Positions 1,153-17,338 of a DNA stretch of 64,000 bases are shown in pieces. Below the pieces are notes generated by a model. The model saw only the letters and a program-made list of their open reading frames with translations, was not told where the DNA came from and made no database searches. Within the stretch, counting starts at the first letter, position 1. Each line of letters begins with the position of its first letter. Origin of the DNA: an uncultured Bacteroidales bacterium (GTDB lineage Bacteria; Bacteroidota; Bacteroidia; Bacteroidales; Paludibacteraceae); contig ONHW01000016.1 in the NCBI GenBank assembly GCA_900317745.1, forward strand, positions 18,031 through 82,030, in the 5' to 3' direction. Both the position numbers and the translations under genes were made by a program.

Positions 1153-1878
1153 ATGAAAAAGCTATTCTTTTTGAGCCTTATGGTTCTGACGGCAGCTACG
1201 ATGTCTGCCAAGCGTTATTACGTGATGGGTGATGACCGCGCTATCCCTATGTCGGCAAACACCTCTATCATGGAGAAAACCGAACTCATGCTCTGGATTC
1301 GTGACTGGGGCGATCAGTCGCTCACCTGCTCGCTGGAGACCAGCAGCGATGCCGGTCCTTCGGGATTCAGCTATCTCGTTTTTATGTGCCACAGCGATAA
1401 CACGGGTGCACCCGCTTCCGGTTACTACGGCGCAACATGGGCTATCAAAGAGCCGCTCGACCTCACCGAGATTACTGAAGACTGGAAGATGGTTATCGTC
1501 TGCAAGACCGATGTACCTGTATGGACACTGACCGTTACCGGTGATGCTTGCACGCTTGACCTCGCTGCCAAAGTAGCCACCAAGGACAACCAAACTTGGC
1601 AGACTATCGAAATCCCGATGTTCGATATCTTCGACAAGGGTATCTCCTTCGCTCAGCCGCTGGCAACAGGTTACCTGTTCAATATGCTGACCAACGACAA
1701 CACCGCTACCACGCAGCTCTGCATAGACTCGTGGTACTTCACCGACGGCAACGACGACGAGGGCGATGCTGTTGACAATGTATCGCTGACCGGCAAGGCT
1801 ACCAAGGTTATCGAGAACGGACAGATCGTTATTATCAAGAACGGCGTTCGTTTCAATGCTCTGGGTGCACAACTGTAA
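1153..1878 (+). CDS. Secreted single B-module protein with short C-terminal tail
   Basis: A 241-residue protein with a signal peptide (about residues 1-19, ending MSA before KRYYVMG). The rest resembles one copy of the beta-rich module, called B here, that recurs in the proteins at 3496, 5523 and 12141: it begins K-R-Y-Y, has a W in the middle and ends in a D-S-W-Y-F-T-D strand. The last 27 residues form the shared tail (KVIENGQIVIIKNG, then FNALG). No catalytic motif is visible. The neighbours are glycosidases, so a glycan-binding surface protein is the simplest inference, but no named family was recognised. Confidence 0.7.
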   Translation: MKKLFFLSLMVLTAATMSAKRYYVMGDDRAIPMSANTSIMEKTELMLWIRDWGDQSLTCSLETSSDAGPSGFSYLVFMCHSDNTGAPASGYYGATWAIKEPLDLTEITEDWKMVIVCKTDVPVWTLTVTGDACTLDLAAKVATKDNQTWQTIEIPMFDIFDKGISFAQPLATGYLFNMLTNDNTATTQLCIDSWYFTDGNDDEGDAVDNVSLTGKATKVIENGQIVIIKNGVRFNALGAQL

Positions 1879-1908
1879 TTGACACCATTCTGACTAACGT
1901 CACTTATG

Positions 1909-1935
1909 CCGGCGGCGGCTGACTACTGCCGCCGG
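1909..1935 (+). terminator. GC-rich hairpin between secreted-protein genes
   Basis: CCGGCGGC (1909-1916) pairs perfectly with GCCGCCGG (1928-1935) around an 11-base loop, 31 bases after the stop of the gene at 1153. No T-run follows, so it may be a partial terminator or an mRNA-stabilising stem rather than a strong intrinsic terminator. Confidence 0.45.
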
Positions 1936-1959
1936 TTGCTAATCAAACCTCTCTGACCA

Positions 1960-3327
1960 ATGAAGCGACTGATAACTTTTACACTTGCTCTTACTCTGAT
2001 CTTGTGCGCTGCAATGGCGCAGCAACCGCGTAGCAACAAACGCGGTGCGGGTACGAACAATATGGCGTACCGTGCTAACTTCGAAGTGCTCAACCCCGGA
2101 TTGTCATGGTTCTACAACTGGACATTCACAGCACCTACGGTCATTGCCAACGATTGGGAGTCACTCAATCTTGAGTATGTGCCTATGACCTGGGGCGGCG
2201 GTCTGGACCGCGAAGGTGGACTGGATAAGATTCGCGCCTACCTCAGTCAGCACCCGAGTATCAAGTATATCCTGGGGTTCAACGAACCGAACTTCACTTC
2301 CCAATCGCGTATGACGCCTAAGTACGCCGCTTCGCAGTGGCCCTATCTCGAGCAGATTGCCGATGAGTTCAACCTCACCATCGTAGGACCCGCACTGAAC
2401 TTCGGTCCTGCAGGAGGATCGGTGCGCGACGAGGATGATGGTCACGAATATACCAGTCCGTACGACTGGTACGACAAGTTCTTCTCCTACTGCCCCGATT
2501 GCCGAGTTGACCATATCGCCATTCACCTGTATATGCCTACCGGCGCTTTGCAGGGAACAATCGACCAGTTCTGGCAGAAGTACCACCGACCTATCTGGCT
2601 CACCGAGTTCAACTACAACTCCGGCGGCAGTGCCACACCTGAAGATCACATGCGCTTCCTTACGTCCGAACTGGAGATGCTTGAGAAGCATCCGCACGTC
2701 TTTCGCTATGCATGGTTCATGACCTACAGCAGTGTATGGCAGATCAACCTGCTCGACCTCGGAGAGGGCAAACTTACCGACCTCGGCAAACTCTATGTAG
2801 GTATGTCCAGCTTCGACTCGACGTACTATCACTCCGTAGGCGAGAAGATCCCTGCTGCGCATTATCAGAACGCCAAGTCCGTGACTATACGCACCTCAAC
2901 CGATGATACCAACACCCTCATGCTCAAGGATATGTCCACCGGCTCGTGGGCGGAATATCTGGTAGAAGTACCCAGGTCGGATACCTACAAAGTGTTCATG
3001 CACCTGGCATGCAAATCCGGCTCGAAGATTGATGTCTATGAGGACGATCAACTCGTTACTACCCTCCAACCGACTGCTACCTCTACGACTGATTTCGACA
3101 CGTGGGGAACGCAGCAGTTCGATGTCCCGCTCACTGCCGGCAAACATCGCCTGAAGTTCTATAGCAACGCCCGACTCTATTACTACGAGTGGCTCAGCAT
3201 CGGCGAACCCACGCCTGTCGAGCAGACGGCCGCGCAAACGCTACCGGCAAAATGTATAGAAAACGGTCAACTGCTCATCCATACCAACGGAAGGACGTAT
3301 AATGCTTTCGGTCAAGCCGTTGATTGA
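1960..3327 (+). CDS. GH128-type beta-1,3-glucanase with CBM6-like domain and C-terminal tail
   Basis: 455 residues with a signal peptide (cleavage near AMA-QQ, residue 20). Residues about 30-280 are a glycosyl-hydrolase catalytic core of the GH128 type. The acid/base Glu lies in GFNEPN (E109) and the nucleophile Glu in WLTEFN (E216), each at the end of a beta-strand as the family requires. Residues about 290-410 resemble a CBM6-type beta-sandwich, and the protein ends in the shared tail (CIENGQLLIHTNG, then YNAFG). GH128 enzymes cleave beta-1,3-glucans such as laminarin or curdlan, so that substrate is inferred from family. A paralogue with the same architecture lies at 15998. It is probably exported to the cell surface. 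Confidence 0.85.
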   Translation: MKRLITFTLALTLILCAAMAQQPRSNKRGAGTNNMAYRANFEVLNPGLSWFYNWTFTAPTVIANDWESLNLEYVPMTWGGGLDREGGLDKIRAYLSQHPSIKYILGFNEPNFTSQSRMTPKYAASQWPYLEQIADEFNLTIVGPALNFGPAGGSVRDEDDGHEYTSPYDWYDKFFSYCPDCRVDHIAIHLYMPTGALQGTIDQFWQKYHRPIWLTEFNYNSGGSATPEDHMRFLTSELEMLEKHPHVFRYAWFMTYSSVWQINLLDLGEGKLTDLGKLYVGMSSFDSTYYHSVGEKIPAAHYQNAKSVTIRTSTDDTNTLMLKDMSTGSWAEYLVEVPRSDTYKVFMHLACKSGSKIDVYEDDQLVTTLQPTATSTTDFDTWGTQQFDVPLTAGKHRLKFYSNARLYYYEWLSIGEPTPVEQTAAQTLPAKCIENGQLLIHTNGRTYNAFGQAVD

Positions 3328-3433
3328 TGCCGATTTATGCCCAAAAGTGCTATAAAGCATAAAACAATATACTAAATGTCAAAATTCATATATTTTTCGC
3401 CATTATTCATATCTTACTTTGGCAAAAAAGCAG

Positions 3434-3441
3434 TAATTTTG
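3434..3441 (+). promoter_or_regulatory. Possible Bacteroidota -7 element (TAATTTTG)
   Basis: TAATTTTG fits the Bacteroidota -7 consensus TAxxTTTG and lies 55 bases before the ATG at 3496, in an AT-rich gap. No TTTG is found 20 bases upstream, so the -33 element is weak or absent. A weak TTTATGC/GCATAAA stem (3334-3363) precedes it and may end the previous transcript. Confidence 0.4.
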
Positions 3442-3495
3442 CAGCGTTATTGATAATAATACGTGATTTTTATTAATTTCTAAATCTCTAATAGT

Positions 3496-5250
3496 ATGAA
3501 AAAGTTTTTCCTCTTCATCGCAATGGCAGTAGCCACAATGGCTGCCAATGCTACCACCTATGCACTCTTTGGCGCAGTCCCCGAAGGTGCTACTGACCTG
3601 ACGGCTAAAGTTGTAGCCGAAGCACAAGGCACGGCTGCTTTTGCTGAAGGCGTGCTGACCGGCGCAGGTCTGCCCGGACGTATCAACGAAACGAGCAACT
3701 ATCTGCGCTTGTCGTTCTCTGAGGCACAGGATCTCTCTCTTACGGATGAGTTTGCTCTGCACATCGTTCTCCAAAAGGCTGACGGCGCTGCAGGCAAGGT
3801 GCAAGTATCTCTCTGCAACAATGGTTGGAATGCTGCACGTGTCGCTTGGGAAATTGAGAATGCCGACATCGCTGCCGACAAGGCTTCGGATGTAGCGCTC
3901 AAGTATGGCGATCGCAATACAGGTAACTGGAACAGTTACGGTGAGTCGAACATCGTTGGCGATAAGACGTTCACCAATGAGATCATGCGTATCAGCGCAG
4001 CCAGCGGCGAGCAGTTCACCATCACATCCATCTATTTGGAGTCTAAGTATGAATCGCAAGGTGGCGATGACCCTGTTACGCCTCCCACTCCCGAAGGCAA
4101 TGTACGTTACTACCTCTATCGTGGCAACAACACCGATGCGCTGCCTACCATTGATGAGGTAACCTGCATTGACGTTCGTCCTACTGCCAACGCTACCGTT
4201 TCCTGCAACTCTGCAGCTCAAGATGCCGCTGTTACCGACTACGCACAGTTCACCGTCAACGGATCGTGGTGCGCTATCGACCACAAGCCGACGGCAACTG
4301 TTACCAATGCTATCGACAACACCTATTACCTCGTCGTTCGATTCAAAACAGACTTGGCTGATGGGGCTGTCACCAGCAACAAACTCCGCTTCAACCTCTC
4401 CAGCGGTGCAGGTAACTTCTATATCAACAACTCTGAAGAAGTTACGTACAACGACGGCAAGTGGCATATCGTTCAGCTCGCGCTCGCTGATGCCAATGGC
4501 AACAAACCGTCTTCTTACCTCGTCGCCAACCAGCACGCTTTCCAGATTCACCTCGACGGTAATGGCGCGTCCGGCAAGATCATCGCTATCGACTATGCGT
4601 ACTTCACCAACGACATCTCCGCTATTGACGAAGGTACAGCCGCGGACGGCGAGATACCTGTTGAACCGGAAGTTATCCCCGAGCAAGACCCGTACCTCAC
4701 ATCTGAGTGGTGGAACTGCTCTGTATCCAACGAGTTCTTTGGTATAACAACCAACGCCGAGTGGTGGTTCAACTTCCAACTCAAGAACAATGCTGCCGTT
4801 GACCTCACACCGGTTTATAGCACCTGGCGACTCGTTATCCGCCTCAGGAACGGTGTTGTTGAGGACGGTCAGGACCGTGGACTGACCATCGAGATGGGTG
4901 AGCCTGCAGCCAATGTTAACTTGGTTAGCACCTTTGCTGAGGCTGAAAACTTCGTAGTCAAAGAGCTTCCGCTCACAGAGAGCCTGACCGATGCCAAGCA
5001 CTTGAAGGAACTGGCTGCCGGAGCAAACATCCTCGTTATGTCTTCCGGTAACAACAACGAGGCAGGTCGTGCCATCGAGTTCGATTACATCTACTTCACC
5101 AACGAACCGGAGTCTGTTGATCCCGCTACAGGCTTGGATTGCACCGGCAATACTGTTCTTGACCAACCGGTTAAGTTCATCAACAACGGTCAGATGTTTA
5201 TCCGCCGTGGTGATGTAATATACGATCTCAATGGCCAGCAAATTCGCTAA
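3496..5250 (+). CDS. Secreted multimodular A-B-B' protein with C-terminal tail
   Basis: 584 residues with a signal peptide of about 19. Module A (about 21-185) starts TYALFGAVPEGATDL and includes an LCNNGWN motif. Module B (about 203-378) runs from VRYYLYRG to IDYAYFTND. A diverged B-like module (about 395-540) ends FDYIYFTNEP. Proline-rich linkers separate the modules. Residues 556-584 form the shared tail (FINNGQMFIRRG, then YDLNG). No catalytic residues are recognisable. Modules of this kind, beta-rich and repeated next to glucanases, suggest carbohydrate binding, but that is inference. Module A also occurs at 5523 and 14718, and B at 1153, 5523 and 12141. Confidence 0.7.
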   Translation: MKKFFLFIAMAVATMAANATTYALFGAVPEGATDLTAKVVAEAQGTAAFAEGVLTGAGLPGRINETSNYLRLSFSEAQDLSLTDEFALHIVLQKADGAAGKVQVSLCNNGWNAARVAWEIENADIAADKASDVALKYGDRNTGNWNSYGESNIVGDKTFTNEIMRISAASGEQFTITSIYLESKYESQGGDDPVTPPTPEGNVRYYLYRGNNTDALPTIDEVTCIDVRPTANATVSCNSAAQDAAVTDYAQFTVNGSWCAIDHKPTATVTNAIDNTYYLVVRFKTDLADGAVTSNKLRFNLSSGAGNFYINNSEEVTYNDGKWHIVQLALADANGNKPSSYLVANQHAFQIHLDGNGASGKIIAIDYAYFTNDISAIDEGTAADGEIPVEPEVIPEQDPYLTSEWWNCSVSNEFFGITTNAEWWFNFQLKNNAAVDLTPVYSTWRLVIRLRNGVVEDGQDRGLTIEMGEPAANVNLVSTFAEAENFVVKELPLTESLTDAKHLKELAAGANILVMSSGNNNEAGRAIEFDYIYFTNEPESVDPATGLDCTGNTVLDQPVKFINNGQMFIRRGDVIYDLNGQQIR

Positions 5251-5274
5251 TCATGACCGATTAACAAAAAATAT

Positions 5275-5328
5275 AATGGCAAAAGTGGCAAAAATGGCAA
5301 TTTTGTCAACTTGGTCACTTTTGCCATT
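5275..5328. repeat. 13-bp perfect inverted repeat, probable transcript-end hairpin
   Basis: AATGGCAAAAGTG (5275-5287) is the exact reverse complement of CACTTTTGCCATT (5316-5328), with a 28-base loop that repeats GGCAAAAATGGC internally. It lies 24 bases after a stop codon, which suits a terminator or mRNA 3' stem. A related motif (TTGCCATTTGGCAC when read on the minus strand) occurs near 31751. Confidence 0.5.
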
Positions 5329-5382
5329 TCTGCCACATATACTCTCTATTAATCCAACATTTTCGAACGCAGTGTTCAAATA

Positions 5383-5426
5383 GTTAGCGTTAGTGATTCG
5401 TTAATGATTCGTTAGAGATTCATTAG
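5383..5426. repeat. Tandem 11-bp repeats upstream of a secreted-protein gene
   Basis: Successive units at 5394, 5405 and 5416 read TGATTCGTTAA, TGATTCGTTAG and AGATTCATTAG; a more degenerate unit begins at 5383. The 11-base period puts each copy on the same face of the helix, as for cooperative protein-binding sites. It lies about 100 bases before the gene at 5523. Confidence 0.5.
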
Positions 5427-5522
5427 TTATTATCGGACCTTTTAGCACCTTAAGTAGAACTGTCAGCGGTGCCAAACAAGGAATATGTATAAACAACCAT
5501 AGTAACCCCAAAAACTAATACA

Positions 5523-8243
5523 ATGAAACGTTTGTTTTTATCTTTAACTTTTGCCTGCCTCGGTCTGTTCGTCTCCACCCAGGCGCAAACTCCCGCCGGC
5601 TACGCCATCTTCGGCGACGTGCCTGATGGCTATACTGACCTCTCAAGTGCTGTTAATGTTGTCGGAGCAGGTTCATATTCAGATAAAGTTGTTATAGAAG
5701 ATGGTAAGATCAAACTTACAGGTAACACTTCTTTATCAACAACTCGTGTTTGCTCAGATGAAAGCAATAATGTAAGACTGCAGTTTACATCTGTGCAAAC
5801 GTTAACGTGGACATCTGATTTCGCCATACACATTAAAATTAAAAAAGGAAGCACAAATTCCAATGCTAATTTTCATTTCGCATTATGTCGGGACGGCTGG
5901 AATTCCAAACGTTTAGGCTACTTTATTCCGCAATCTGAAATCTCTGATGCTGATGAAAGCGAGATAGTCTTGCAGTTGGGTGATCGCGCGACGACAGACT
6001 GGAGTAGTGCTAACGATAATCAAATGTATGGAACAAACATGTCATTCGGCGCAAATGATATAGTGCGTTTGCAAGCTGCCACAGGTGATTATTTCGAAAT
6101 ATCCCAAATATTCATCGAGGCCGAATATGTAGCACCTGTAGAACCTCTGACACCTCAAGACCCCAAGCGTTATTACTTTGTACGCGGTGGAGATCTTCCC
6201 GTAATTGATGGAGTTGAGTGCGTTGATTTACGCGCAACAACCTATTCTGCTTGGGGAACAAATAGTATTACTGCTCCGACATTAAATGAAAACGGTGCAT
6301 CGTTTACGCTTCCGAATAGTTGGTTTGCGGCAGATATTAGACCCAAAGCACAATGTATGGCAGATGTTCGCCGTGCAGACTGGTATCTGCGTATGAAATT
6401 CAAAACCGATGCTTCTTCTCTGGCAAATCAAAATCTTTGTATCAATTTAAGTAATGGTGCTAACAACTTCCATTTGACAAATGATTATGGAGATGGGGAG
6501 TGGCACGATATAACCTTCTCATTGGATGATGCAGCAAATACTTTGCGTTCCTTCCCTGTTGCCGCAAATGATATTGCTTTCCAATTGCATGCTAACGGAT
6601 CCTTGAATGGCTCTTATTTCAATATTGAATACGCGTATCTTACCAATGACCCCGATTCTGACGAGAAACCGGCTATCGTTGATGAAGAAGCACCGGCTAA
6701 CTTCAGTGTGACGGAGAAACCGGCGGCAACTACATTTAGTTCTACTACGTTGCTACTATACGCCGAGGACGAAGATACGCCAATCACATACACTATCCGT
6801 TATGCCGTCAAGAACTCCGGTGATACGCCTACGGAAACATCCGTTAACGGTGCACAAGGCTCAACGGTTGAGAAAACCATATCCGGTCTGGCTCCTGAAA
6901 CAACGTACACCTTCTCTGTAGTTGCCAGTGACCCGAACGGCAACGAAACATCACCTGTCGAGTTGGATATCACTACAGCCGCATTTGCCGCACAACGTTA
7001 CTATCTCTGGCGTGGCGATAACTCCGATTTTCCATCCTCGGCTTCTGTTACAAGTACATACGTCGACTGCAATCTGGAGTTTGGCAACAGTTCCAGAAAC
7101 GCTCGAGCAACAGACTATATTTCCGCCACTACGGGCAACACATGGATTGCAATTACACTCAAACCCAAAGCAACCGTCGCTAATGACATTGATGACGATT
7201 GGTATATTGTCGTTCGCTTCCGTGCCAATTTGTCGAATAATGTCTTTGGCTTCAACAATTTCCGTCTCAATCTATCCAACAATGCTCAAAACTGGTATAT
7301 CAATAATGATGATGCGGATAAGCCCTTCGGCCGTGATTATTACGATGGGCAATGGATTGTACTCAAGAAGCGTATCGGTGAACGCCGCGCTGGGACTGTT
7401 GTTCCTGCATCTTATTTGCAAGCAGGCCAAGTGGCTGTTCAAATGCATGTCAATGCCAACCTCATTGCCGGCGAGTTCCTTGACCTCGATTACGCCTATT
7501 TTACCAACGACATTTCCTCCATTGACGAAGGAACACAATCGCGCCGCAGGATTGTGCTGAAAGACAGTCAGAATAACTCCTCTGTTCTTGCGGCACGCAA
7601 CGGCGAGACGGTTGATGTGGATCTCGTTCGCTCATTGTCTTCGGCAAGTTACAACTCGTTCTGCGTACCGTTCAGCATGAACGCTGAGCAAGTGGAAAAA
7701 GCCTTTGGTGCAGACGTCAAAATTGGCAAACTCGATAACGCCCGCATCAAGGAGAATGATGAACTTTATCTCGGTTTTGCTTTCGTGGACGCTATTGAAG
7801 CCGGTGTGCCGTATATTATCCAACCGGGCAGCAATGTTACAAGTTCGCTCATTCATGATGTAACTATTAGCAACGCGCTCGTTCCCACCGTTATTGATGG
7901 CGTAATCACGTTCCACGGTGTTGTCAATCCAACAGAGATTTCCGCCCAGTCGGCTGAGGATCATACAATCCTGCTGTTGGGTGCTGAGAACACCCTGTCA
8001 TGGCCGAACACGACTGCTAATATCAAAGGTATGCGTGCTTACTTCCAAACCACCTCGGCTATTGCTCCTGTTGTTCGCAGAGCGCGTCTGGGCTTTGAGC
8101 AAACCGAAGTAGCCACCGATATCCATGATCTCCCAACCGCCGACAATGTAGCAAAAGTGGTTCACGACGGACAACTTTACATCCTTCGTGACGGCGAGGA
8201 GTACTCGGTATTAGGTCAACACATTCACCATATCAACCAATAA
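5523..8243 (+). CDS. Large secreted A-B-FN3-B protein with C-terminal tail
   Basis: 906 residues with a signal peptide of about 21 (ending TQAQ). Visible order: module A (24-202, GYAIFGDVPDGYTDL), module B (215-378), a fibronectin-III-like domain (388-487, ending LAPETTYTFSVVASD), a second B (490-670), a beta-rich domain of unknown family (about 675-870), and the shared tail (VVHDGQLYILRDG, then YSVLG). No enzyme motifs are seen. The part from about 5640 to 6660 is visibly more AT-rich, with codon choice unlike its 3' half and its neighbours, which suggests recombination. It is likely a surface-exposed binding protein; the modules are of no named family that I recognise. Confidence 0.7.
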   Translation: MKRLFLSLTFACLGLFVSTQAQTPAGYAIFGDVPDGYTDLSSAVNVVGAGSYSDKVVIEDGKIKLTGNTSLSTTRVCSDESNNVRLQFTSVQTLTWTSDFAIHIKIKKGSTNSNANFHFALCRDGWNSKRLGYFIPQSEISDADESEIVLQLGDRATTDWSSANDNQMYGTNMSFGANDIVRLQAATGDYFEISQIFIEAEYVAPVEPLTPQDPKRYYFVRGGDLPVIDGVECVDLRATTYSAWGTNSITAPTLNENGASFTLPNSWFAADIRPKAQCMADVRRADWYLRMKFKTDASSLANQNLCINLSNGANNFHLTNDYGDGEWHDITFSLDDAANTLRSFPVAANDIAFQLHANGSLNGSYFNIEYAYLTNDPDSDEKPAIVDEEAPANFSVTEKPAATTFSSTTLLLYAEDEDTPITYTIRYAVKNSGDTPTETSVNGAQGSTVEKTISGLAPETTYTFSVVASDPNGNETSPVELDITTAAFAAQRYYLWRGDNSDFPSSASVTSTYVDCNLEFGNSSRNARATDYISATTGNTWIAITLKPKATVANDIDDDWYIVVRFRANLSNNVFGFNNFRLNLSNNAQNWYINNDDADKPFGRDYYDGQWIVLKKRIGERRAGTVVPASYLQAGQVAVQMHVNANLIAGEFLDLDYAYFTNDISSIDEGTQSRRRIVLKDSQNNSSVLAARNGETVDVDLVRSLSSASYNSFCVPFSMNAEQVEKAFGADVKIGKLDNARIKENDELYLGFAFVDAIEAGVPYIIQPGSNVTSSLIHDVTISNALVPTVIDGVITFHGVVNPTEISAQSAEDHTILLLGAENTLSWPNTTANIKGMRAYFQTTSAIAPVVRRARLGFEQTEVATDIHDLPTADNVAKVVHDGQLYILRDGEEYSVLGQHIHHINQ

Positions 8244-8255
8244 ATTCTGACGATT

Positions 8256-8384
8256 ATGAAAAAGTATATCAGTCCGCAAACAGATATTGTTTCCTCCGCT
8301 ATCGTCGGAGTGGTACTTATGGTAAGCAATAATGCGGGATTAAACTATTCTGAGGACGGAATAGATCCCAACAATGCATGGTAA
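8256..8384 (+). CDS. 42-residue small protein
   Basis: Starts MKKYISPQTDIV and ends DPNNAW. It lies 12 bases after the stop at 8243, and its stop is 1 base before the best start of the next gene (8386), so it sits within the operon. The central stretch SSAIVGVVLMVS is hydrophobic. Short proteins starting MKKYxxP are, to my recollection, common beside exported-protein genes in Bacteroidales, but no function is known to me. Coding status rests on the in-frame start, tight spacing and clean stop. Confidence 0.55.
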   Translation: MKKYISPQTDIVSSAIVGVVLMVSNNAGLNYSEDGIDPNNAW

Positions 8385-8385
8385 T

Positions 8386-10839
8386 ATGAAGAATATTATT
8401 CGTTATCTGACGTGTATGCTGCTGCTCTTGTGCGCTCTTGGCGCACAGGCGCAGCGAGGCACGGAGTTTTGGTTTGCACCGCCGTGGATGAACTCACACC
8501 ATACCGGTGAGGCAGATTTTCATGTTGTCCTCTCGGCGTATGATCGGGATGCACATGTTGTCATCTTCCAACCGGCGGACGGCAACCTTGTGTTGTGTGA
8601 TACTGTTGTACTCGCACACAGTTACTGCGACGTTATCGTTGCCCCGAAGTCCGATCACAAGTCGTACGCCGAAGCGCAGATAGAGGTGCCGTACAACTCT
8701 ATATCCAAACGCGGTATGTACATCACTGCCGATCATGATATTGGCGCGTACTACCAGATAACGATGCACAATGGCGAGGCATACACGCTCAAAGGACAGA
8801 ACGCTCTGGGAACGGAGTTCGTTGTCATGTCGCAGAACAAGTATCCCAACCATGCCGACTATAACGGCTACAAGAGCCACAACAACAGCATTCAGATCGT
8901 TGCTACCGAGGATGGAACCACGGTCACCATCACACCCTCGCAACCCATTATACATGACGATAACACTTCTTCTACAGCGCCTGTCACGCTTACGCTCAAT
9001 CGCGGTCAGACCTATGCGGTCAAGGCTGCCGGCACCGCTGCGGCTGCACATCTGATAGGCACGCGCGTGGATGCCGACAAACCTATAGCCGTCACTACCT
9101 CCGATGACTCGGTAGAAGGCGGAGGTGGTGAGGATGCCGTAGGCGAACAACTGGTGCCGACCGACATGGCAGGAACGGATTATACAGTTATCCCTCTGTC
9201 CGGCTCAACTAAGGAGAGCATCTTTATCCTCGCCTTGCATCCGTCCACTACTGTCGAACTGCATGCTGAAGGCAGCGACGAAACAATCGTGCTCGATTCG
9301 CTGCAAAGCGTATCCCGCACCTTATCCAAAGTCACATATATCCACGCCGATGCGGATATTCAAATCTTCCAACTCACGCATCGTGAGGGCGAGTTGGGCG
9401 GTACGGTGCTCCCGCAGATGCTATGTACAGGCTCTAATCATGTGACATACAAGCGTATCCCCAATAGTACATACACTGTCCTCAATATCCTGACTCAGAC
9501 CGACAACGCCGCTTACCTGTATATGAACGGCAACGAGGTGCCACAATCCGACTTCAACCCCATACCCTGCACAGACGGCAAGTGGTCGTATGTCTCGCTG
9601 AACGTAACCGCCAAGCCTGCTGCTATGCCGCTGGAGATAGAGTCCAAACGCGGTGTGTTCCAACTCGGTGTGGTCGATTTTGCTTCCGACCCGACAAAAA
9701 CGCTCACTTACGGATTCTTCTCCGATTATGCCAACGGAGCTGCTATCGATGTGGTGGTTGACGAGGAATTGCTTGACACGGCTTTCGTGCTCTGCGAAGG
9801 CGAATCGGTTACAATGGTTGCCGCCGCTCCTGATGGGGTAAGCAACTTCAAGTGGTACAGGGGCAATACGCTGGTGCATACCGGTGATACACTGACCATT
9901 GAGGCTGCCGATGTAGCCAAGTCCGGCACCTATCGCGTGGAAGGCGACAGCCACGATTGTACGGTTGAGTACAAGGAGTTCACATTCTTTATTCAACCTC
10001 GCCAGACGGTTATTCCGCTCACCGAGGTTATTATCGCTGAGGGCGAGAGCTATACTTGGCCCGTTAATGGACAAACCTATTCCACTTCAACATACGACAC
10101 CGTTTGGACTGCTGTTCAGTATGGCGATCTGCCAATCTTTGGCTGCGATACGGCTGAGGCATTGCATGTCATTGTTCGTGCGTGCATCGAGGCTACACTG
10201 ACTTGTCCTGACGAGATTTGCGGCGATGAAGCAACTATCCTTCTACCCTTCACCATCACAGGTAGTGGCGAATATACCGTAGCCGCTGCTTTTGACGCCA
10301 AGGCGAAGGCCGCAGGATTCACTGATGGTGAACTGACTGCCTCCGGTTCTGATCTTGTATTGCCTGTACCCGAAGCCGTCTATGCCGACACCTATACGGC
10401 TGTCGTCACATTCACCCCAACTGAGGACGGTTGCGAGATTCAGCAGTTCCCGATCTCTTTCCTTGTGCGCTATCCGAATACGGTATTTACGCAGCGTTGG
10501 AACGATGTGCTTGCTGTCTATAACGAGCGTTACAACCGTGGTGAGGGGCGTGTGGGCTACAAGTTCACATCCTACCAGTGGTACAAGAACGGCCAACCTA
10601 TCACCGGAGCAACAGGATCGTATTACTACGTTGGTCCTGTCGAGCAACTGGACTTCAATGCCGACTATTCGGTTGAACTCAAGCGTGAAGACGGTGTGGT
10701 TATGCGCTCATGCGAGTATCGTCCCGTGCAGACCGATGCACCGGATATGGTTACTACCACCAAATCGCTCATACGCGGACAGATCATCATCCGCCGTGGC
10801 GATAAGGAATATACCCCGTTAGGACTGCCGCTCAGATGA
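8386..10839 (+). CDS. Secreted IgGFc-binding-like protein with Ig-like domain and C-terminal tail
   Basis: 817 residues when started at ATG 8386, which gives a clean signal peptide (MKNIIRYLTCMLLLLC to AQAQ); an ATG 12 bases earlier lies within the preceding small gene. Residues after RGTEFWFAPPW up to about 440 match the N-terminal domain of IgGFc-binding-like proteins, often found in large bacterial surface proteins. An Ig-like domain follows (near FKWYRGNTLVHTGD), then further beta-rich sequence, then the shared tail (SLIRGQIIIRRGD, then YTPLG). Its stop overlaps the next start by ATGA, so it is probably translated together with the beta-barrel/OmpA protein. A role in adhesion or surface display is inferred. 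Confidence 0.75.
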   Translation: MKNIIRYLTCMLLLLCALGAQAQRGTEFWFAPPWMNSHHTGEADFHVVLSAYDRDAHVVIFQPADGNLVLCDTVVLAHSYCDVIVAPKSDHKSYAEAQIEVPYNSISKRGMYITADHDIGAYYQITMHNGEAYTLKGQNALGTEFVVMSQNKYPNHADYNGYKSHNNSIQIVATEDGTTVTITPSQPIIHDDNTSSTAPVTLTLNRGQTYAVKAAGTAAAAHLIGTRVDADKPIAVTTSDDSVEGGGGEDAVGEQLVPTDMAGTDYTVIPLSGSTKESIFILALHPSTTVELHAEGSDETIVLDSLQSVSRTLSKVTYIHADADIQIFQLTHREGELGGTVLPQMLCTGSNHVTYKRIPNSTYTVLNILTQTDNAAYLYMNGNEVPQSDFNPIPCTDGKWSYVSLNVTAKPAAMPLEIESKRGVFQLGVVDFASDPTKTLTYGFFSDYANGAAIDVVVDEELLDTAFVLCEGESVTMVAAAPDGVSNFKWYRGNTLVHTGDTLTIEAADVAKSGTYRVEGDSHDCTVEYKEFTFFIQPRQTVIPLTEVIIAEGESYTWPVNGQTYSTSTYDTVWTAVQYGDLPIFGCDTAEALHVIVRACIEATLTCPDEICGDEATILLPFTITGSGEYTVAAAFDAKAKAAGFTDGELTASGSDLVLPVPEAVYADTYTAVVTFTPTEDGCEIQQFPISFLVRYPNTVFTQRWNDVLAVYNERYNRGEGRVGYKFTSYQWYKNGQPITGATGSYYYVGPVEQLDFNADYSVELKREDGVVMRSCEYRPVQTDAPDMVTTTKSLIRGQIIIRRGDKEYTPLGLPLR

Positions 10840-12119
10840 GAAACGTGCTTCGTATCATATTGTCGGTCATGATGGCTGCTTGCGTGGCATCTGCATCAGC
10901 TCAGATGCGCGACTCGTTGCTCACCCACTATGTGGGGCTGGAGGCGCATGTCGGTTACAGCAATATGTTCACGCGTCAGAACGGCTTGCATGATTTAGGC
11001 GGAGTAGGTGGCGGACTCGGGTTTGCTTACAAGTTCCAGTACCGCCCGTGGCGCTTCCAGACAGGTCTGGCTGTCACTTCGCTCAACTCGCTCTCCCGCG
11101 GTGATTGGTATAGTTCTACGCCGGTCACCTCGCCGTATCCGTCCATGACGCTCAACGAGCGCTACGAGGATGTGCGGTTTGGTCGTCACGCCGTGTCAAT
11201 CTCCCTGCCGGTCAAAGCAGGCTATCGCATAGGTGACTGGACACTCATGGCAGGTGTACGTGCCTCATATCCCGTATGGCAGACCGCCAACTATAGCGGC
11301 AAGCGGGCTCCAACCATCACCGACGAACAACTCATCGACGAACTGCGCGATATGCCTAACCATGGATTGGTCACAACACCGTTTGAGGATGTTCTGCCGC
11401 GTACCATGGGACCGGATCTGACGGTAGAAGCAGAGGCTATTTGGGATCTCGACAAGTATCTGGCTTACCACTCGAAAAAGAAATCAAGAAAAAGCCGCAG
11501 AAAGACTTTCAAGGAACTGCTTCATTACGAAGTATCCGTTTTTGCATCGGCCGGAGTGCTCAATTCAGGCACGGCTGCCGATCCGCTGAACAGTCTGTTT
11601 GTTGGTGGAAGGTTTGCTGTGTTCTATGAGTTCGAACACCCGAAGCCCAAGAAGAAACCCGGCCAGAGCAAACCTCGCCCGAAACCCAAACCTACACCTG
11701 CGCCCGAACCTGTTCTTCCTCCGGTTGAGCAACCTGTTCAGCAGGATACGATCTACTATGGCGAGCAGGTGATTCAAAAGGGAGATACCGTCGTGTTGCA
11801 GAACCTGTATTTTGCCACCAACAAAGTACACGTGCTGCCCTCCTCCGCTGAGGCGTTGGACGAACTATATACCTTCCTGGACGAAAATCCCGACATGCGC
11901 ATCCGTATAACCGGTCACACCGATAACACGGCTTCCCGTGAGTACAACCTCCGCCTGTCGAAGGGACGCGCCGAAGCAGTCAAACAGGAGATGGTTAAGC
12001 GCGGCATTGATCCCGAACGTATTGAAACGGATGGCAAGGGCATGGACGAACCTGTAGCGGATAACTCTACTGAAGAAGGTCGTCAGCAGAACAGACGTGT
12101 GGAGTTTGTAGTATTGTAA
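10836..12119 (+). CDS. Outer-membrane beta-barrel fused to OmpA peptidoglycan-binding domain
   Basis: 427 residues with a signal peptide (MRNVLRIILSVMMAACVASASAQ). Residues about 25-270 alternate in a pattern typical of small Bacteroidota outer-membrane barrels (LEAHVGYSNMF, GGGLGFAYKF). A Lys/Pro-rich linker (about 270-300) follows, then an OmpA C-terminal domain (about 318-427) with HTDNTASREYNLRLS and NRRVEFVV, the peptidoglycan-binding signature. The barrel is a paralogue of the one at 13946: both share MPNHGL and the HY-x(4)-A-x-VGYS start. It is translationally coupled (ATGA) to the tailed protein upstream. The likely role is anchoring the outer membrane to the wall, perhaps as partner of that protein. 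Confidence 0.85.
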   Translation: MRNVLRIILSVMMAACVASASAQMRDSLLTHYVGLEAHVGYSNMFTRQNGLHDLGGVGGGLGFAYKFQYRPWRFQTGLAVTSLNSLSRGDWYSSTPVTSPYPSMTLNERYEDVRFGRHAVSISLPVKAGYRIGDWTLMAGVRASYPVWQTANYSGKRAPTITDEQLIDELRDMPNHGLVTTPFEDVLPRTMGPDLTVEAEAIWDLDKYLAYHSKKKSRKSRRKTFKELLHYEVSVFASAGVLNSGTAADPLNSLFVGGRFAVFYEFEHPKPKKKPGQSKPRPKPKPTPAPEPVLPPVEQPVQQDTIYYGEQVIQKGDTVVLQNLYFATNKVHVLPSSAEALDELYTFLDENPDMRIRITGHTDNTASREYNLRLSKGRAEAVKQEMVKRGIDPERIETDGKGMDEPVADNSTEEGRQQNRRVEFVVL

Positions 12120-12140
12120 AATCATCGAAAAGTGCAAGAT

Positions 12141-13949
12141 ATGAAACGAATAGTATGCATACTGGCAGCCCTGACTTTGGTGCTGGCTATATATGCGGAG
12201 AAGCGCATCTACTTCTTCCGTGCTAAAGACCTGCCGACTGATGTTGAGACCATCGATCTGCGTCCCGACATGGGTTTGACGCAACTGACACTCAACAATA
12301 TCTACGCCGATCCCGAGGCGCGCTACGCTTTGTTCAACAAGAATTCGGACAGTTGGTGGCAAGTGATGGTGGAGACAGCCAAAGGCAAGACGGTTGACCT
12401 CAGTGAGGTGGATAACACTTGGTATCTGAAACTCAAGATCCGCCGCACGGTTGATTATACCCTCACGCTTGTTCTTGCCGGTGCAGGCACAGCCAACGGC
12501 TATCCCTTACCTGTATCCCAACTGCCGGCTAACGGCGAGTGGACCGAATTCACCATACCGATGAAGGATCTTCCCGTACTGCCCGAACTGACTGAGAAGT
12601 ATTCCGGACGGCTGTTGCAGATTCACTCCGACGCAGGTTATACGGGTGACATAGTAGGTATCGACTATTGCTACCTTACCAATGACCCGACGGGCGTGGA
12701 TGAAGGTACTGTGCAACGCCCCAAGCGGTACTATTTTATCACCAACAGCAAGACGCCCCTCAGCGGCATGCCATACGCTATAGTGGATTATTCGGCTCAG
12801 ATGACCGCGCGTGCTCAGGGATGGATGCAGTGGTCATATATCCCGTTCCCTTATTACTCAATGGACGCCGACATGCCCGTAGTACAACAATTGCAATGCG
12901 CTGCGCCATGTTCCATGTCTGACGTGAATGACGACTGGTATGTGATAGCCCAGATCCGTACAAACGTAGAGGGTACATTTGCCGTTCGCCTGTACTTGCC
13001 CGATGGTAAGGCTTATGCCGATACCATTGCAGCCGGTCAACTCGTTCGCGACGGCAGTACGTGGAACACGCTCACTCTGCCGTTTGACAGAATGTATCCT
13101 TACACCTATTCGGAAACAACCGATGTGTTGCTGTCTCTTGCATCCGTCGGCAACGCCTCTGCTGGCGAATGGACTATGGCTTCGCTTATGCTTACCAACG
13201 ATCCCTCGATTGCTGACCCGCAACCCGCCGTACCTGCTGACCCATCACAAGAGTCGCGTATCTATCTGCTCAACGATGGTTCACCGCTTCCCGCTGCTAT
13301 GACGTGCACGGATTATCGGCTCGATCAGACAGACTACTTATCCATCGGTTATGGCAACAACACCACACGCAAGTCCACCGATGCGTTTCTTACCTTGCTG
13401 CCTACCAACGGATGGTGGTCGGCTGACATTGCTGCCAAGTCTGCAGTTGATCTGACAGCCGTGGATGATACATGGACCATGCATACGCGTATCCGCACTA
13501 CCTCTACCTATCGGCCGATCAACCTCATCCTGTACAAGGAGGGAAATGCCCAACTTGCCCGCTACCAACTCACCGATGCCCTCTTGCCCGTAGCACAGAA
13601 CGGCAATTGGTACGACTTCGATATACCTATGACTGCTTTCCTGGCAACAGGAAGCACACTGATCAGTTATACCTCGCGTATCTTCTCTTTCCACTCCGAT
13701 GGCGGAGGTACAAGCGGTGTAGAGGTTAGTATGGAGTACCTGTATTTCTCCAAGGAAGGCGAATCGCGACCTGATCCGCAACCGACACTGCCGCCTGTGG
13801 CAGAACCGGAACTCGAACCTGTGCAGACTCCTGACGGATTATTCTATCCGGCTATCACGTCTGCACAGAAATACATCCGAAACGGATTGCTGGTTATTCA
13901 GCACCAAGACAAATACTTTGACGTATTAGGCAGACCGCTAACCAGATGA
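12141..13949 (+). CDS. Secreted triple B-module protein with C-terminal tail
   Basis: 602 residues from ATG 12141, chosen over a GTG 9 bases upstream because it gives a normal MKRIVCILAALTLVLA signal peptide. Three copies of module B follow, beginning EKRIYFFRAKD (about 20-195), PKRYYFITNS (about 197-370) and SRIYLLNDG (about 375-550). The first two end in YCYLTNDP or a similar strand. A Pro/Glu-rich linker leads to the shared tail (YIRNGLLVIQHQD, then FDVLG). No enzymatic motif is seen. The stop overlaps the next start (ATGA), repeating the arrangement at 10836. Glycan binding is inferred from context only. Confidence 0.7.
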   Translation: MKRIVCILAALTLVLAIYAEKRIYFFRAKDLPTDVETIDLRPDMGLTQLTLNNIYADPEARYALFNKNSDSWWQVMVETAKGKTVDLSEVDNTWYLKLKIRRTVDYTLTLVLAGAGTANGYPLPVSQLPANGEWTEFTIPMKDLPVLPELTEKYSGRLLQIHSDAGYTGDIVGIDYCYLTNDPTGVDEGTVQRPKRYYFITNSKTPLSGMPYAIVDYSAQMTARAQGWMQWSYIPFPYYSMDADMPVVQQLQCAAPCSMSDVNDDWYVIAQIRTNVEGTFAVRLYLPDGKAYADTIAAGQLVRDGSTWNTLTLPFDRMYPYTYSETTDVLLSLASVGNASAGEWTMASLMLTNDPSIADPQPAVPADPSQESRIYLLNDGSPLPAAMTCTDYRLDQTDYLSIGYGNNTTRKSTDAFLTLLPTNGWWSADIAAKSAVDLTAVDDTWTMHTRIRTTSTYRPINLILYKEGNAQLARYQLTDALLPVAQNGNWYDFDIPMTAFLATGSTLISYTSRIFSFHSDGGGTSGVEVSMEYLYFSKEGESRPDPQPTLPPVAEPELEPVQTPDGLFYPAITSAQKYIRNGLLVIQHQDKYFDVLGRPLTR

Positions 13950-14701
13950 ATCGACTGAAGCTGATACTTGTTTCGGGCTATACAGCGCTACTGATGTCTG
14001 CTGCGTTGCAGGCGCAAACCGTTACCCATTATCTGACGGCAGAGGCAGGTGTCGGTTATTCGGCAGGATTCCTGGGCGAAGCAGGTGTAGGCTACGCGTT
14101 TGCCGACAGGTTGTTTCTGATGCGCACAGGTCTTGAGATGGCATATACTTTCCGTCGAATGCGTGTGCCTGATCATACGGAGCAACAGGGTGAAGTAGAT
14201 AGCGAAGATGTACCTTATACTGCCGTATATGATTATACACGCCAGACCGACCGTTTGCACCTCACCGAGCTGCGTGTGCCCTTGTTGGCAGGTGTGCAGT
14301 GGCAGAACTGGTATCTGCTTGCCGGAGTAAAAGCGGGCGTACTGGTGGCAGGTAAGCAAAAGTCTGAGATGGATATTACCAAGTCAGGCGATTATGCGAT
14401 GTTCAACGATATATTTGAGGAAATGCCCAACCACGGCTTGACTACCGATCATCAGTTCAGTTCAGCCTCTTTGCCTGCTCAGGCGACAGCCTACGCCACG
14501 CTTGAGACGGGTATGCACTGGCAGTACTTGGGTTGGGCAGTGTTTGCCGATTACAGGCTGCCCGGTTACAGCGTTGACACACGCCCGATTGACCGCCTGA
14601 CCATTGGCGCCAAACTCACCTTCTGGCTCGGTTGGCAGAAACGCCGCTCAATGCCCTGCATGTGCACACCCCAAGCAGCCTATTATTTACGCAGACGATG
14701 A
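13946..14701 (+). CDS. Outer-membrane beta-barrel protein, paralogue of the barrel at 10836
   Basis: 251 residues with a signal peptide (ending LQAQ). Alternating hydrophobic strands and aromatic residues indicate a small outer-membrane barrel. It shares HYLTAEAGVGYS and EEMPNHGLTT with the barrel at 10836 but lacks the linker and OmpA domain; the end is Cys/Arg-rich (MPCMCTP, YYLRRR). The start overlaps the stop of the tailed protein upstream by 4 bases. Pairing of a barrel with a tailed protein recalls SprB/SprF-type T9SS partner pairs, but the barrel does not look like a clear PorP/SprF, so that comparison is inference. Confidence 0.75.
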   Translation: MNRLKLILVSGYTALLMSAALQAQTVTHYLTAEAGVGYSAGFLGEAGVGYAFADRLFLMRTGLEMAYTFRRMRVPDHTEQQGEVDSEDVPYTAVYDYTRQTDRLHLTELRVPLLAGVQWQNWYLLAGVKAGVLVAGKQKSEMDITKSGDYAMFNDIFEEMPNHGLTTDHQFSSASLPAQATAYATLETGMHWQYLGWAVFADYRLPGYSVDTRPIDRLTIGAKLTFWLGWQKRRSMPCMCTPQAAYYLRRR

Positions 14702-14717
14702 TAAAAACAATCATATT

Positions 14718-15983
14718 ATGAAACGAATAGTATTTATATCACTACTTACACTCCTTGTGAGTGTTTCTAAAGCGGATATTCCCGCAGGTTACGCTATTTA
14801 CGGTATAGTGCCTTCCGGTTATACAGATTTGACGGCTAATGTAAGTATAGGCGACTGGGGAGGTGGCTATAATGATTCCCAAACGTCCTATATTGAATAT
14901 ACCGGCAAAGGATTGGGCGGTAATGTAGGAGAGGGAAACTACTTACGCTTGTCTTTTACAACTGAGCAACAGCTTCAACTCACTTCAACTTTCCGTGTGC
15001 ATATAATTATGCGTAAAACAGCGGATTCGGAAAATAGTGTGCAGTTCTCATTGTGTCGCAATGGTTGGAATTTCAACCGTGCCGGTAAAACGATTGCCGC
15101 TGCCAACCTGTCAACCGATTATCAAGACATCGTGCTTGCCAATACTGACTTGACTGAATCTACCTGGGGAACAATCCGCACGGGTGATGAAACCACGTTT
15201 GGGGCGGCGGACGTGATGCGCTTTTGTGCAGTTAATGGTGAAGTAATCAATATTAAGCAGATTTACATTGAGAACGTATTCTCGCCGTTTGTGCAATCAT
15301 CCGGATTGGGTATCCTTCGTGCCAAGGCTCTTCCAATTTATGCAGAAACAAGCGCATTTGTGCCGACAGGTGCAAGTGTGGATAACATAAACTTGTATGT
15401 AGTTAGTGTAAATCAAGATGTTTACGCTCGGATGACATCCACCGGGCATAGTTTCGATGCCGGTTTTGCTGATAACTACCAGTTACGCACATGGAGAAGC
15501 AACGGTGATGCCAACGCAACAGGCAATACGGTTAGTCCTTATCCGTATCCCGATGGTGCGATGTTTACAATGGTAAATGGTTTGTTTGGCATTGGACCAA
15601 ATGCGGATTGTTACGTGAGTGCCCGTGCCAAGCTATGGGGACAAGGAAGTATAAGATGTTCTGCGCAACTTTATTTCCGTGGCACCTATGTTTGCACTCC
15701 TACAGGCGACAAGACCGCTCCGACCGCTACCGCTTCGCCGTATTACGATGGCGAGCATTTTACCGTTACTATTTCTGCAACCGATAATAGCGGCGAAGTG
15801 TTCTATTATACAGAAAACACGACTCGAGGTACAAAGCAAATATCTTTTGTCCCTACATTTGTGCTGAACGGTGCGGTTGAGGGAGATATTATCACGTGCT
15901 ATGCCGTAGATTTTGACGGCAACATGTCTTCTCCTATGCGTGTCGGCGCTATGACCTGCAATAATTGTTTTATCGTAAATTGA
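14718..15983 (+). CDS. Secreted module A protein with Ig-like/chitobiase-like C-terminal domain
   Basis: 421 residues from ATG 14718, which gives the signal peptide MKRIVFISLLTLLVSVSKA; an in-frame ATG 114 bases upstream lies inside the barrel gene. Module A follows (about 20-190, GYAIYGIVPSGYTDL, LCRNGWN). The middle (about 195-345) is unassigned. The last ~75 residues (SATDNSGEVFYYTENT) look like the small beta-domain found at the end of many glycosidases. It is the one secreted module protein here without the shared tail, ending MTCNNCFIVN. Composition is more AT-rich than its neighbours, as in the 5' half of the gene at 5523. Confidence 0.65.
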   Translation: MKRIVFISLLTLLVSVSKADIPAGYAIYGIVPSGYTDLTANVSIGDWGGGYNDSQTSYIEYTGKGLGGNVGEGNYLRLSFTTEQQLQLTSTFRVHIIMRKTADSENSVQFSLCRNGWNFNRAGKTIAAANLSTDYQDIVLANTDLTESTWGTIRTGDETTFGAADVMRFCAVNGEVINIKQIYIENVFSPFVQSSGLGILRAKALPIYAETSAFVPTGASVDNINLYVVSVNQDVYARMTSTGHSFDAGFADNYQLRTWRSNGDANATGNTVSPYPYPDGAMFTMVNGLFGIGPNADCYVSARAKLWGQGSIRCSAQLYFRGTYVCTPTGDKTAPTATASPYYDGEHFTVTISATDNSGEVFYYTENTTRGTKQISFVPTFVLNGAVEGDIITCYAVDFDGNMSSPMRVGAMTCNNCFIVN

Positions 15984-15997
15984 ATCAGTAGTAATAT

Positions 15998-17338
15998 ATG
16001 AAGCGAATTATTCTTTTCTTTCTTGTTTTGTTCCCGTTGCTTGCGGTAGCGCAGACGCAGAGTTACAAACGCGGTTACGGTGTTGATCAGTCGAAGTTCA
16101 CCAATCAGGCTATAGCCAACCTCGCACCGGGTGCAGGTTGGTACTACGACTGGAGTCACTCTACCTACCTGGATTTCGAAGGCGCAGATGTCGATTTTGT
16201 GCCTATGACCTGGAATGGCGGCTATAATGCCTCGCAGTTACGGCAGTTCCTCTCCGAGCACCCTAATGTCAAGTACCTGTTGGCGTTCAACGAACCGAAC
16301 TTCCGCGACCAGGCAAACATGACTCCCTCGCAGGCTGCTGCCGCGTGGCCTGCACTGCAGGCTATTGCCGATGAGTATAACCTCAAGATTGTTTCTCCTG
16401 CGCCAAACTGGTGCGGCTGGTGCGTCGAGGAGGGCGGCACGACCTACAACTCGCCCTACGACTGGCTACGTGACTTCTTTGCTGCCTGCCCCGACTGCCG
16501 CGTGGATTATATAGGTATTCACTTCTATATGGGTGCAATGGAGTCGGTCAAAGGTAGTATTGATCTGCTATGGGAGCAGTTTCACAAACCCGTTTGGCTC
16601 ACCGAGTTCAATATGGATAAAAACGGCATGGGCGACAACGGCACGGCTGACGAGCAGCGCGCGTTCATGGTAAAGATGATCGACTGGATGGAACGCGACG
16701 AGCATGTGTACCGCTATGCCTGGTTCCTTGGTCGCGGCGGAATAATCACTGACCTTATCGGCTCTGACAAGCAATCGTTGACTCTGCTCGGCAAGGTATA
16801 TGCCAATATGTCGTCGTATGACGCCAATTTCTATCACTCTACCGGCAAACGTATTGAGGCTGAACATTATATATCAATGGACAATATCTCGCTTGTCGAG
16901 AGCACGGACGTTGATGGTGCTCTGTCGGTCGGCTACACTGCAGCAGGTAGCAAGGTGGCATATCAGATTGATGTGCCGAATGCGGGGCAGTGGGATCTGA
17001 CCTTGCGTACCGCAGGCGAACAAATAACAGGTGTGGAGATTTACAGCAATAACACGTTCCTTGCCTCCGTTACTATCCCGTCCTCCGGGTCATGGACGAA
17101 ATGGCAGGATTACAAGACTGCCCTCAACCTCCCTGCCGGCAAACAGACTTTGGAACTAAAGATTGCCTCCGGATCATGTGACTTCAACTGGTTGCAACTG
17201 GGCAACACTGCTTCTGCGCTGCCCGCCACAGCCGATGAGCAAAGCACTGTTGCACGTAAGCATATCTTGCGCGACGGCTCGCTCATTATCACCACACCGT
17301 TTGGCGAGTACGATGTTTGGGGACGAAAAATTCAATAA
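15998..17338 (+). CDS. Second GH128-type beta-1,3-glucanase with CBM6-like domain and tail
   Basis: 446 residues, signal peptide ending AVAQ. The catalytic core shows AFNEPN (E99, acid/base) and WLTEFN (E203, nucleophile) with the conserved CRVDYIGIHFYM strand between them. Residues about 285-415 form a CBM6-like domain that opens GKRIEAEHY, a better match to CBM6 than its paralogue at 1960. The tail reads HILRDGSLIITT, then YDVWG. Two GH128 enzymes at opposite ends of the cluster suggest complementary attack on a beta-1,3-glucan. It starts 14 bases after the previous stop and ends 15 bases before the GH78 gene. Confidence 0.85.
   Translation: MKRIILFFLVLFPLLAVAQTQSYKRGYGVDQSKFTNQAIANLAPGAGWYYDWSHSTYLDFEGADVDFVPMTWNGGYNASQLRQFLSEHPNVKYLLAFNEPNFRDQANMTPSQAAAAWPALQAIADEYNLKIVSPAPNWCGWCVEEGGTTYNSPYDWLRDFFAACPDCRVDYIGIHFYMGAMESVKGSIDLLWEQFHKPVWLTEFNMDKNGMGDNGTADEQRAFMVKMIDWMERDEHVYRYAWFLGRGGIITDLIGSDKQSLTLLGKVYANMSSYDANFYHSTGKRIEAEHYISMDNISLVESTDVDGALSVGYTAAGSKVAYQIDVPNAGQWDLTLRTAGEQITGVEIYSNNTFLASVTIPSSGSWTKWQDYKTALNLPAGKQTLELKIASGSCDFNWLQLGNTASALPATADEQSTVARKHILRDGSLIITTPFGEYDVWGRKIQ

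Follow-up and report, generated by a model that had tools for sequence, protein, structure and literature searches.

What does the type IX secretion system (T9SS) read in its cargo? This is an open question, and it is raised by a 64,000-nucleotide stretch of DNA from an uncultured Bacteroidales bacterium (the window, which begins at position 18031 of contig C11 of a genome, G000, of 2,599,311 bases in 38 contigs with Paludibacteraceae as its nearest named relatives), in which seven secreted proteins with different N-terminal parts end in the same short tail. A first-pass annotation, made from the letters of the window, had proposed that the tail was probably a sorting signal. The evidence presented here makes it very probable that the tail is a minimal T9SS C-terminal signal that displaced the type A signal on most cargo of one clade, in which PorU kept a type A-like end.

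A C-terminal tail and its exchange with type A domains

The tail was recovered at all seven genes for which it had been described; in their alignment a G, an I and a second G are invariant, and the mean column identity is 39%. When the whole genome was searched with a profile of these seven rows (A1), 102 matches were obtained at E<=10, of which 79 had E<=0.001 and which included the window's seven. Frames were read out of the contigs, and in 102 of 102 the stop codon lay 0-10 residues past the match end; a chance repeat was therefore rejected. Two of these frames, each shorter than 60 amino acids (aa), are truncated at a contig end. A local hidden Markov model (HMM) and a second profile (A2) were built from 89 tails; the other 12 of the 101 distinct sequences, whose ends are weaker or odd, were set aside by hand. 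The HMM found 100 of the 102 tails at E<=0.01, every one C-terminal, and gave 0 matches in the same proteins once the last 34 residues had been removed. The consensus of the 101 distinct tails is K(93%)-x-[ILV]-x-[ND]-G(92%)-Q-[LVI]-x-I(88%)-x-R-[DN]-G-x-x-[YF](97%)-x-x-x-G(all)-x-x-[VIL], and counted from the conserved K the tail is 24-26 residues long in 84 of 100 cases.

The proteins that carry the tail are predicted to be secreted and are otherwise diverse. By a rule made for this analysis, signal-peptide-like starts were found in 93 of the 102 tail frames vs 22 of 425 internal control windows; some of the other nine frames are fragments, and some have starts that the rule rejects. A lipobox-like sequence is present in only 4 of 102, and the idea that these are lipoproteins was rejected. 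In the window, the passengers comprise two Glyco_hydro_cc+CBM6 proteins, one IgGFc_binding/Ig protein and four proteins with no family over the Pfam cut-off. Ten tail proteins from elsewhere in the genome comprise four alpha-amylases, a glycoside hydrolase family 16 (GH16) protein, an M6 peptidase, an endonuclease I, a BspA-type leucine-rich-repeat protein, a CotH protein and one protein without a family. No match to PF18962, TIGR04183, TIGR04131, NF033708 or any other sorting domain was obtained on the window's seven proteins (Pfam and NCBIfam, E<=1). Tail-bearing open frames of approximately 3000-3650 residues also occur in this genome, at C17:52357, C16:102716, C12:73746, C31:124534, C20:181750 and C4:25884, several of them with a variant like NDHVVIIRDGERYDVTG.

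Within the window's genus, the number of tails and the number of matches to TIGR04183, the HMM of the type A C-terminal domain (CTD), run in opposite directions (all such counts per genome are lower bounds, with a ceiling of 52 tails in the family sample, 39 tails in the order sample and 36 TIGR04183 matches). Of 150 genomes sampled from the family, the 13 that belong to the genus, G000 included, all carry the tail, with 9 to at least 52 matches each, and so do 31 of the 137 genomes of other genera, with 1-13 matches. Eleven congeners have 38 to at least 52 tails and 3-10 TIGR04183 matches; two tail-poor congeners show the reverse, G296 with 11 tails and 33 TIGR04183 matches and G306 with 9 tails and 32 TIGR04183 matches (at E<=1e-3 the TIGR04183 matches number 39 and 41, respectively). 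In G000, TIGR04183 has 7 matches over its cut-off, all of them outside the tail frames; tail frames are touched by two weaker matches, of 12.9 and 12.7 bits, which fall short of the cut-off. If the tail is indeed a sufficient T9SS signal, this would explain why current HMMs miss most T9SS cargo in these gut bacteria, as in G000 with 7 places over the cut-off vs about 100 tails.

Comparison of the tail proteins of G000 with the TIGR04183 proteins of G296 and G306 revealed that the two signals are exchanged on homologues. The search, restricted on the congener side to 78 proteins (of 80) in which the match lies <=10 residues from the stop, gave 30 reciprocal-best pairs involving 19 proteins of G000 at E<1e-20. 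Twenty-two of these pairs (14 proteins) cover >=50% of the passenger, several at 47-55% identity, and 12 of the 22, involving 8 proteins, are clean swaps in which the alignment ends <=60 residues from the C-terminus of the G000 protein and <=130 residues from that of its congener. This comparison is biased, in that the G296/G306 side consisted of TIGR04183 proteins only. An unbiased search with the GH16 passenger minus its tail gave matches in 72 of the 150 family genomes; among the best 30 loci, the tail was present in 4 (G000, G329, G216 and G333, all tail-rich congeners), a type A-like end in 20 (including G296 and G306, the others being judged by eye) and no extension in 6, tail-rich G282 among them. 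Likewise, in the case of the GH128-type protein encoded at 15998, relatives in six named metagenome-assembled genomes (MAGs) bear the tail, and the Candidatus Azobacteroides homologue, 49% identical, has by eye a type A-like end.

No protein carried both signals at E<=0.01: the type A model had no match among the 102 tail proteins, nor had the tail model any among the 80 type A proteins of the congeners. Since most rows of each model came from the very set that it detects (72 of the 80 congener CTDs in the case of the type A profile, A3), only the zeros of this exclusion test are informative.

Anatomy of the tail and a proposed export route

A model of the tail predicted with AlphaFold 2 (AF2) from an 89-row alignment has a mean pLDDT of 91 and three strands, at residues 9-13, 16-21 and 24-26. 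In the AF2 model of the full 15998 protein the same strands lie at 421-425, 428-433 and 436-438, with a pLDDT of about 63-70, and are preceded by a low-confidence stretch at 405-420. With this linker before the tail and passengers that differ, the possibility that the tails are the end of a larger catalytic or binding domain was rejected. A Foldseek search of the tail model against the PDB gave a best E value of 1.8. Upstream of the conserved K, the pattern [TS][AG][VIL] occurs at a distance of 9-24 residues in 50 of the 100 tails used for this count, with a peak at 13-14 residues; shuffled linkers gave a mean of 10.4 and a maximum of 21 (500 shuffles). The same pattern stands near the start of the type A domain in 34 of 77 congener proteins, a count for which no null was computed. 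Published cleavage consensus sequences are PT/GI in Prevotella intermedia (PMC11969387) and T/E/D/N|G/A/S in Porphyromonas gingivalis (PMC10202324).

The tail profile aligns with the strand and motif B of the congener type A domains at a score of 16.1, which was reached in 0 of 200 column shuffles (maximum, 13.6). Circular permutation of the profiles brought no gain in score over the native order, and a permuted type A domain was rejected as the origin of the tail. Motif B is described as the loop that reaches deepest into PorV, and in the mutants cited in the same paper RgpB needs motif B and Hbp35 needs motifs D-E (PMC11969387). For signals of P. gingivalis, a requirement for motif D and the C-terminal motif E has been reported (PMC11285876 and PMC11969387). 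Judged by its profile, the tail is a candidate for a signal that retains motif B without motifs D-E. Should a tag of 25 residues prove sufficient in the absence of motifs D and E, it would single out motif B with its strand as the essential element, and a very small export tag for harmless Bacteroidota would be at hand.

The genome has the machine that such a signal would need. The first-pass annotation had deduced a T9SS from two proteins of the window, and for one of them, the PorW/SprE homologue, the identification was firm (Table 1). The other, a PorE-like protein, is a weaker case, with 143 of 600 bits for PorE and a better 175 of 620 bits for CHU_0125. The presence of the system itself was confirmed, since SprA (C20:158563-165831), PorV (C38:29123-30205) and an adjoining PorU (1029.9 bits; cut-off, 420) were all found in addition to PorW. 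Eight PorU proteins from six tail-rich and two tail-poor genomes all scored over the PorU cut-off along nearly the whole model, including its C-terminal part, and TIGR04183 scored over its cut-off in 5 of the 8, that of G000 not being among them. By eye, the end of PorU is type A in 20 of 20 genomes, and the local type A model matched it at E<=0.01 in 18 of 20, the exceptions being G000 (0.065) and G341 (0.058). The T9SS machine itself therefore seems still to carry type A ends on PorU.

A PorU+PorV tree places the 11 tail-rich genomes in a group that excludes both tail-poor congeners and the outgroups (support, 1.000), and the change therefore maps to one branch. Columns specific to this clade number 13 of 389 in PorV vs 5 of 1097 in PorU, an odds ratio of 7.6 that is the largest among the 12 clades compared; this is suggestive only, PorV being the slower protein, which favours such columns.

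Taken together, these data suggest the following route. Cargo would be exported by Sec through its signal peptide, a step to which the predicted signal peptides point, and the tail would fold into a small sheet of three strands that follows a flexible linker. Because homologues use type A signals, we infer that the protein would then be taken up by the T9SS and handed over to PorV through the last element of the tail, the motif-B-like Y-x3-G-x2-[VIL], whose counterpart in type A signals is the loop entering PorV. PorU would cut in the linker near [TS]-[AG]-[VIL], approximately 13 residues before the conserved K, and the protein would be released or anchored. The part of a type A domain that the tail resembles most would be its middle, with the strand and motif B, motifs D and E having been lost, and the tail would have arrived by a single replacement in the ancestor of the clade, whose nearest named relatives are Paludibacteraceae. 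We also consider it rather probable, though with less assurance than the signal function itself, that the whole clade swapped its T9SS cargo signal along one ancestral stretch for a tag of approximately 25 residues with motif B alone, on some 40-100 proteins per genome, with matching changes in PorV and a sortase that retained its former signal; if this is true, the tag would be the smallest T9SS signal known.

Weighing the readings

The proposal that the tail is a sorting signal is well supported: the tail is strictly C-terminal, it stands on secreted proteins, it is swapped with type A domains on homologues, a PorU-like motif lies upstream of it in half of the cases, and a T9SS is present. 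Several observations nevertheless weigh against the reading as a T9SS signal that displaced type A. In ten of the 22 homologue pairs the swap is not clean, with an alignment that stops far from one C-terminus, and half of the tails lack a simple cleavage motif. The hhalign probability of tail vs type A is low (18-45%), and motifs D and E are not recognisable in the tail, the last 30 type A columns aligning over 3 columns with a probability of 3.7. Few TIGR04183 matches are also found in tail-poor genomes of other genera (G240 has 5 matches and 1 tail). The replacement lies on one branch, with two tail-poor congeners only, and the anticorrelation of tail and type A therefore amounts to one evolutionary event. 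Finally, three tail-bearing family genomes (G227, G276 and G319) have no SprA match, of which G227 has PorV and a PorU-like neighbour. SprA was found in 144 of 150 family genomes and in 187 of 198 genomes of an order sample. Tails in T9SS-less genomes, which the first-pass annotation had named as the finding that would speak against it, were not seen among the 11 SprA-negative order genomes (0 of 11), a comparison of little power with only 7 positives in 198.

Two readings would give the tail a role away from the T9SS. It could be a dockerin-like docking module by which secreted enzymes are gathered on a surface scaffold, without any part in crossing the outer membrane, for which its recurrence on many unrelated enzymes and surface proteins and its small independent fold would speak. 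We regard this as very unlikely, because a docking module would be needed besides an export signal, whereas the tail and the type A domain were never found together on one protein and substitute for each other on homologues; furthermore, a PorU-like motif is found in half of the linkers. It is also highly improbable that the tail directs proteins to another outer-membrane route or to a sortase peculiar to the clade. The seven proteins do lack a match to any T9SS sorting model, and motifs D and E are missing, but homologues rely on type A T9SS signals, the likeness between the tail profile and type A lies around motif B, and the candidate cleavage motif is a PorU-like one.

A third alternative accepts the T9SS and holds that the tail is the short CTD already described in P. 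intermedia (PMC11969387). The two have features in common: both are shortened signals with three predicted strands and a similar, PT/GI-like cleavage motif, and counted from that motif the tail measures about 38 residues (13 + 25), compared with 40-55 in P. intermedia. However, the order there is cleavage site, motif B, motif D (GxY) and motif E (basic), and 48 such CTDs occur beside 32 long ones, whereas here the tail is approximately 25 aa from K, the motif-B-like element comes last, motifs D and E are not found, and type A is nearly lost from cargo; the comparison is with the published description only. In addition, HMMs of P. gingivalis and Tannerella forsythia CTDs had predicted most of the P. 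intermedia CTDs, whereas TIGR04183 finds none of these tails. We therefore think this identity unlikely. According to the same 2025 paper, P. intermedia is the only species reported to have both long and short CTDs. One protein of G000 (L044, on C23) has an end like the P. intermedia short CTD, with motif B, GL-x-I and a basic end, and both kinds of short signal may coexist in this genome.

Among the known T9SS signals, the minimal T9SS tag proposed here comes closest to the type A CTD (TIGR04183/PF18962), with which it shares the C-terminal position on Sec-exported proteins, interchangeability on homologues, Y-x3-G-x2-[VIL] with a strand before it and, in half of the tails, a putative PorU-type cleavage motif. 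Type A differs in being a seven-strand sandwich of approximately 70-100 aa with motifs D and E, and its HMM has no match to the tails. Type B (TIGR04131/PF13585) and type C (ChiA, NF033708) are likewise alternative T9SS signals, yet these are approximately 100 aa long and neither model matches the window's seven proteins; type B signals use other shuttles (PMC12618676). We have therefore filed the tail as a putative T9SS C-terminal signal outside type A, because the TIGR04183 HMM gives no match and motifs D and E are not found. No earlier description of it, or of a type D or minimal signal, was found in the open-licence PubMed Central (PMC) literature.

The clade consists of uncultured animal-gut bacteria, in which a tag of approximately 25 residues seems to replace a signal of 70-100 residues on most exported proteins. 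Relatives of the 15998 protein come from Paludibacteraceae or uncultured Bacteroidales MAGs, with sheep rumen (93% identical), goat reticulum and horse faeces among the sources; one further relative belongs to Candidatus Azobacteroides. 'Candidatus Paraporphyromonas polyenzymogenes', a rumen bacterium, was annotated with TIGR04183 (PMC5831590), an annotation that would miss such tails. The paired genomes, with the same passengers and machine and different signals, offer a ready natural experiment on how small an export signal can be. In the order sample, 7 of 198 genomes, G000 included, had a tail match at E<=1e-3. Each of the remaining six has a single match, and five of these six are among the 195 sampled genomes from outside the family. 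The C-terminus lay 0-9 residues past the match in four of the other six positives, these four being the ones read out. Three single tails outside the family (L102-L104, in families f108, f68 and f111) have TGI/SGV-like motifs upstream. Such single tails would reflect either an old origin or transfer.

The window and its glycan locus

The features of the window are collected in Table 1.

Table 1. Tail-bearing genes and T9SS-related genes of the window (tail lengths are counted from the conserved K)
Feature	Coordinates	Strand	Details
Secreted protein with tail, unknown fold	1153..1878	+	tail 1804..1875, 24 aa
Glyco_hydro_cc (GH128-like) + CBM6 protein with tail	1960..3327	+	PF11790 1.3e-53, PF03422 3.1e-12; tail 3250..3324, 25 aa
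Secreted multi-module protein with tail	3496..5250	+	tail 5173..5247, 25 aa
Secreted multi-module protein with tail, fn3-like stretch below Pfam cut-off	5523..8243	+	tail 8154..8240, 29 aa
IgGFc_binding + Ig-like protein with tail	8374..10839	+	PF17517 3.8e-36; tail 10762..10836, 25 aa
Secreted multi-module protein with tail	12132..13949	+	tail 13869..13946, 26 aa
Glyco_hydro_cc (GH128-like) + CBM6 protein with tail	15998..17338	+	PF11790 2.5e-58; tail 17258..17335, 26 aa
PorW/SprE, T9SS component	42902..45661	-	NF052312 668.7 bits, cut-off 250
PD40+OmpA protein, nearest CHU_0125 and PorE models	25049-27808	-	below both cut-offs

The N-terminal family labels given earlier to the tail proteins agree with the Pfam matches: PF11790, which we take to be GH128, with CBM6 at 1960 and 15998, and IgGFc_binding and Ig at 8386. 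The gene at 14718-15983, which lies among the tail genes, has no tail; its product is module-A-like and its last residues are ...NNCFIVN.

The locus had also been described as a glycan system without SusC and SusD. This is true of the window itself but not of the locus, and a SusCD-less system was rejected: SusC (C11:9961-13017) and a SusD match (C11:13876-14649) precede the window by 3-8 kb on the same strand. The segment C11:9961-16149 holds, on one strand, SusC, SusD, an unknown gene and the start of a GH3-like gene (labelled by eye), and the genome as a whole has 22 SusC matches, 12 of them over the cut-off. Further genes of the locus encode two Bac_rhamnosid6H proteins, a sugar kinase, a major facilitator superfamily transporter and a class II aldolase. 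The locus looks like an ordinary polysaccharide utilisation locus with a SusCD pair, whose accessory proteins carry the tail, and its target is presumably a glycan that contains rhamnose.

Two genes for outer-membrane barrels lie directly 3' of the tail genes 8386 and 12141, at 10836-12119 and 13946-14701. The one encodes an OmpA domain with a barrel-like N-terminal part, the other an OMP_b-brl_2 protein, and the arrangement recalls the pairing of type B substrates with PorP.

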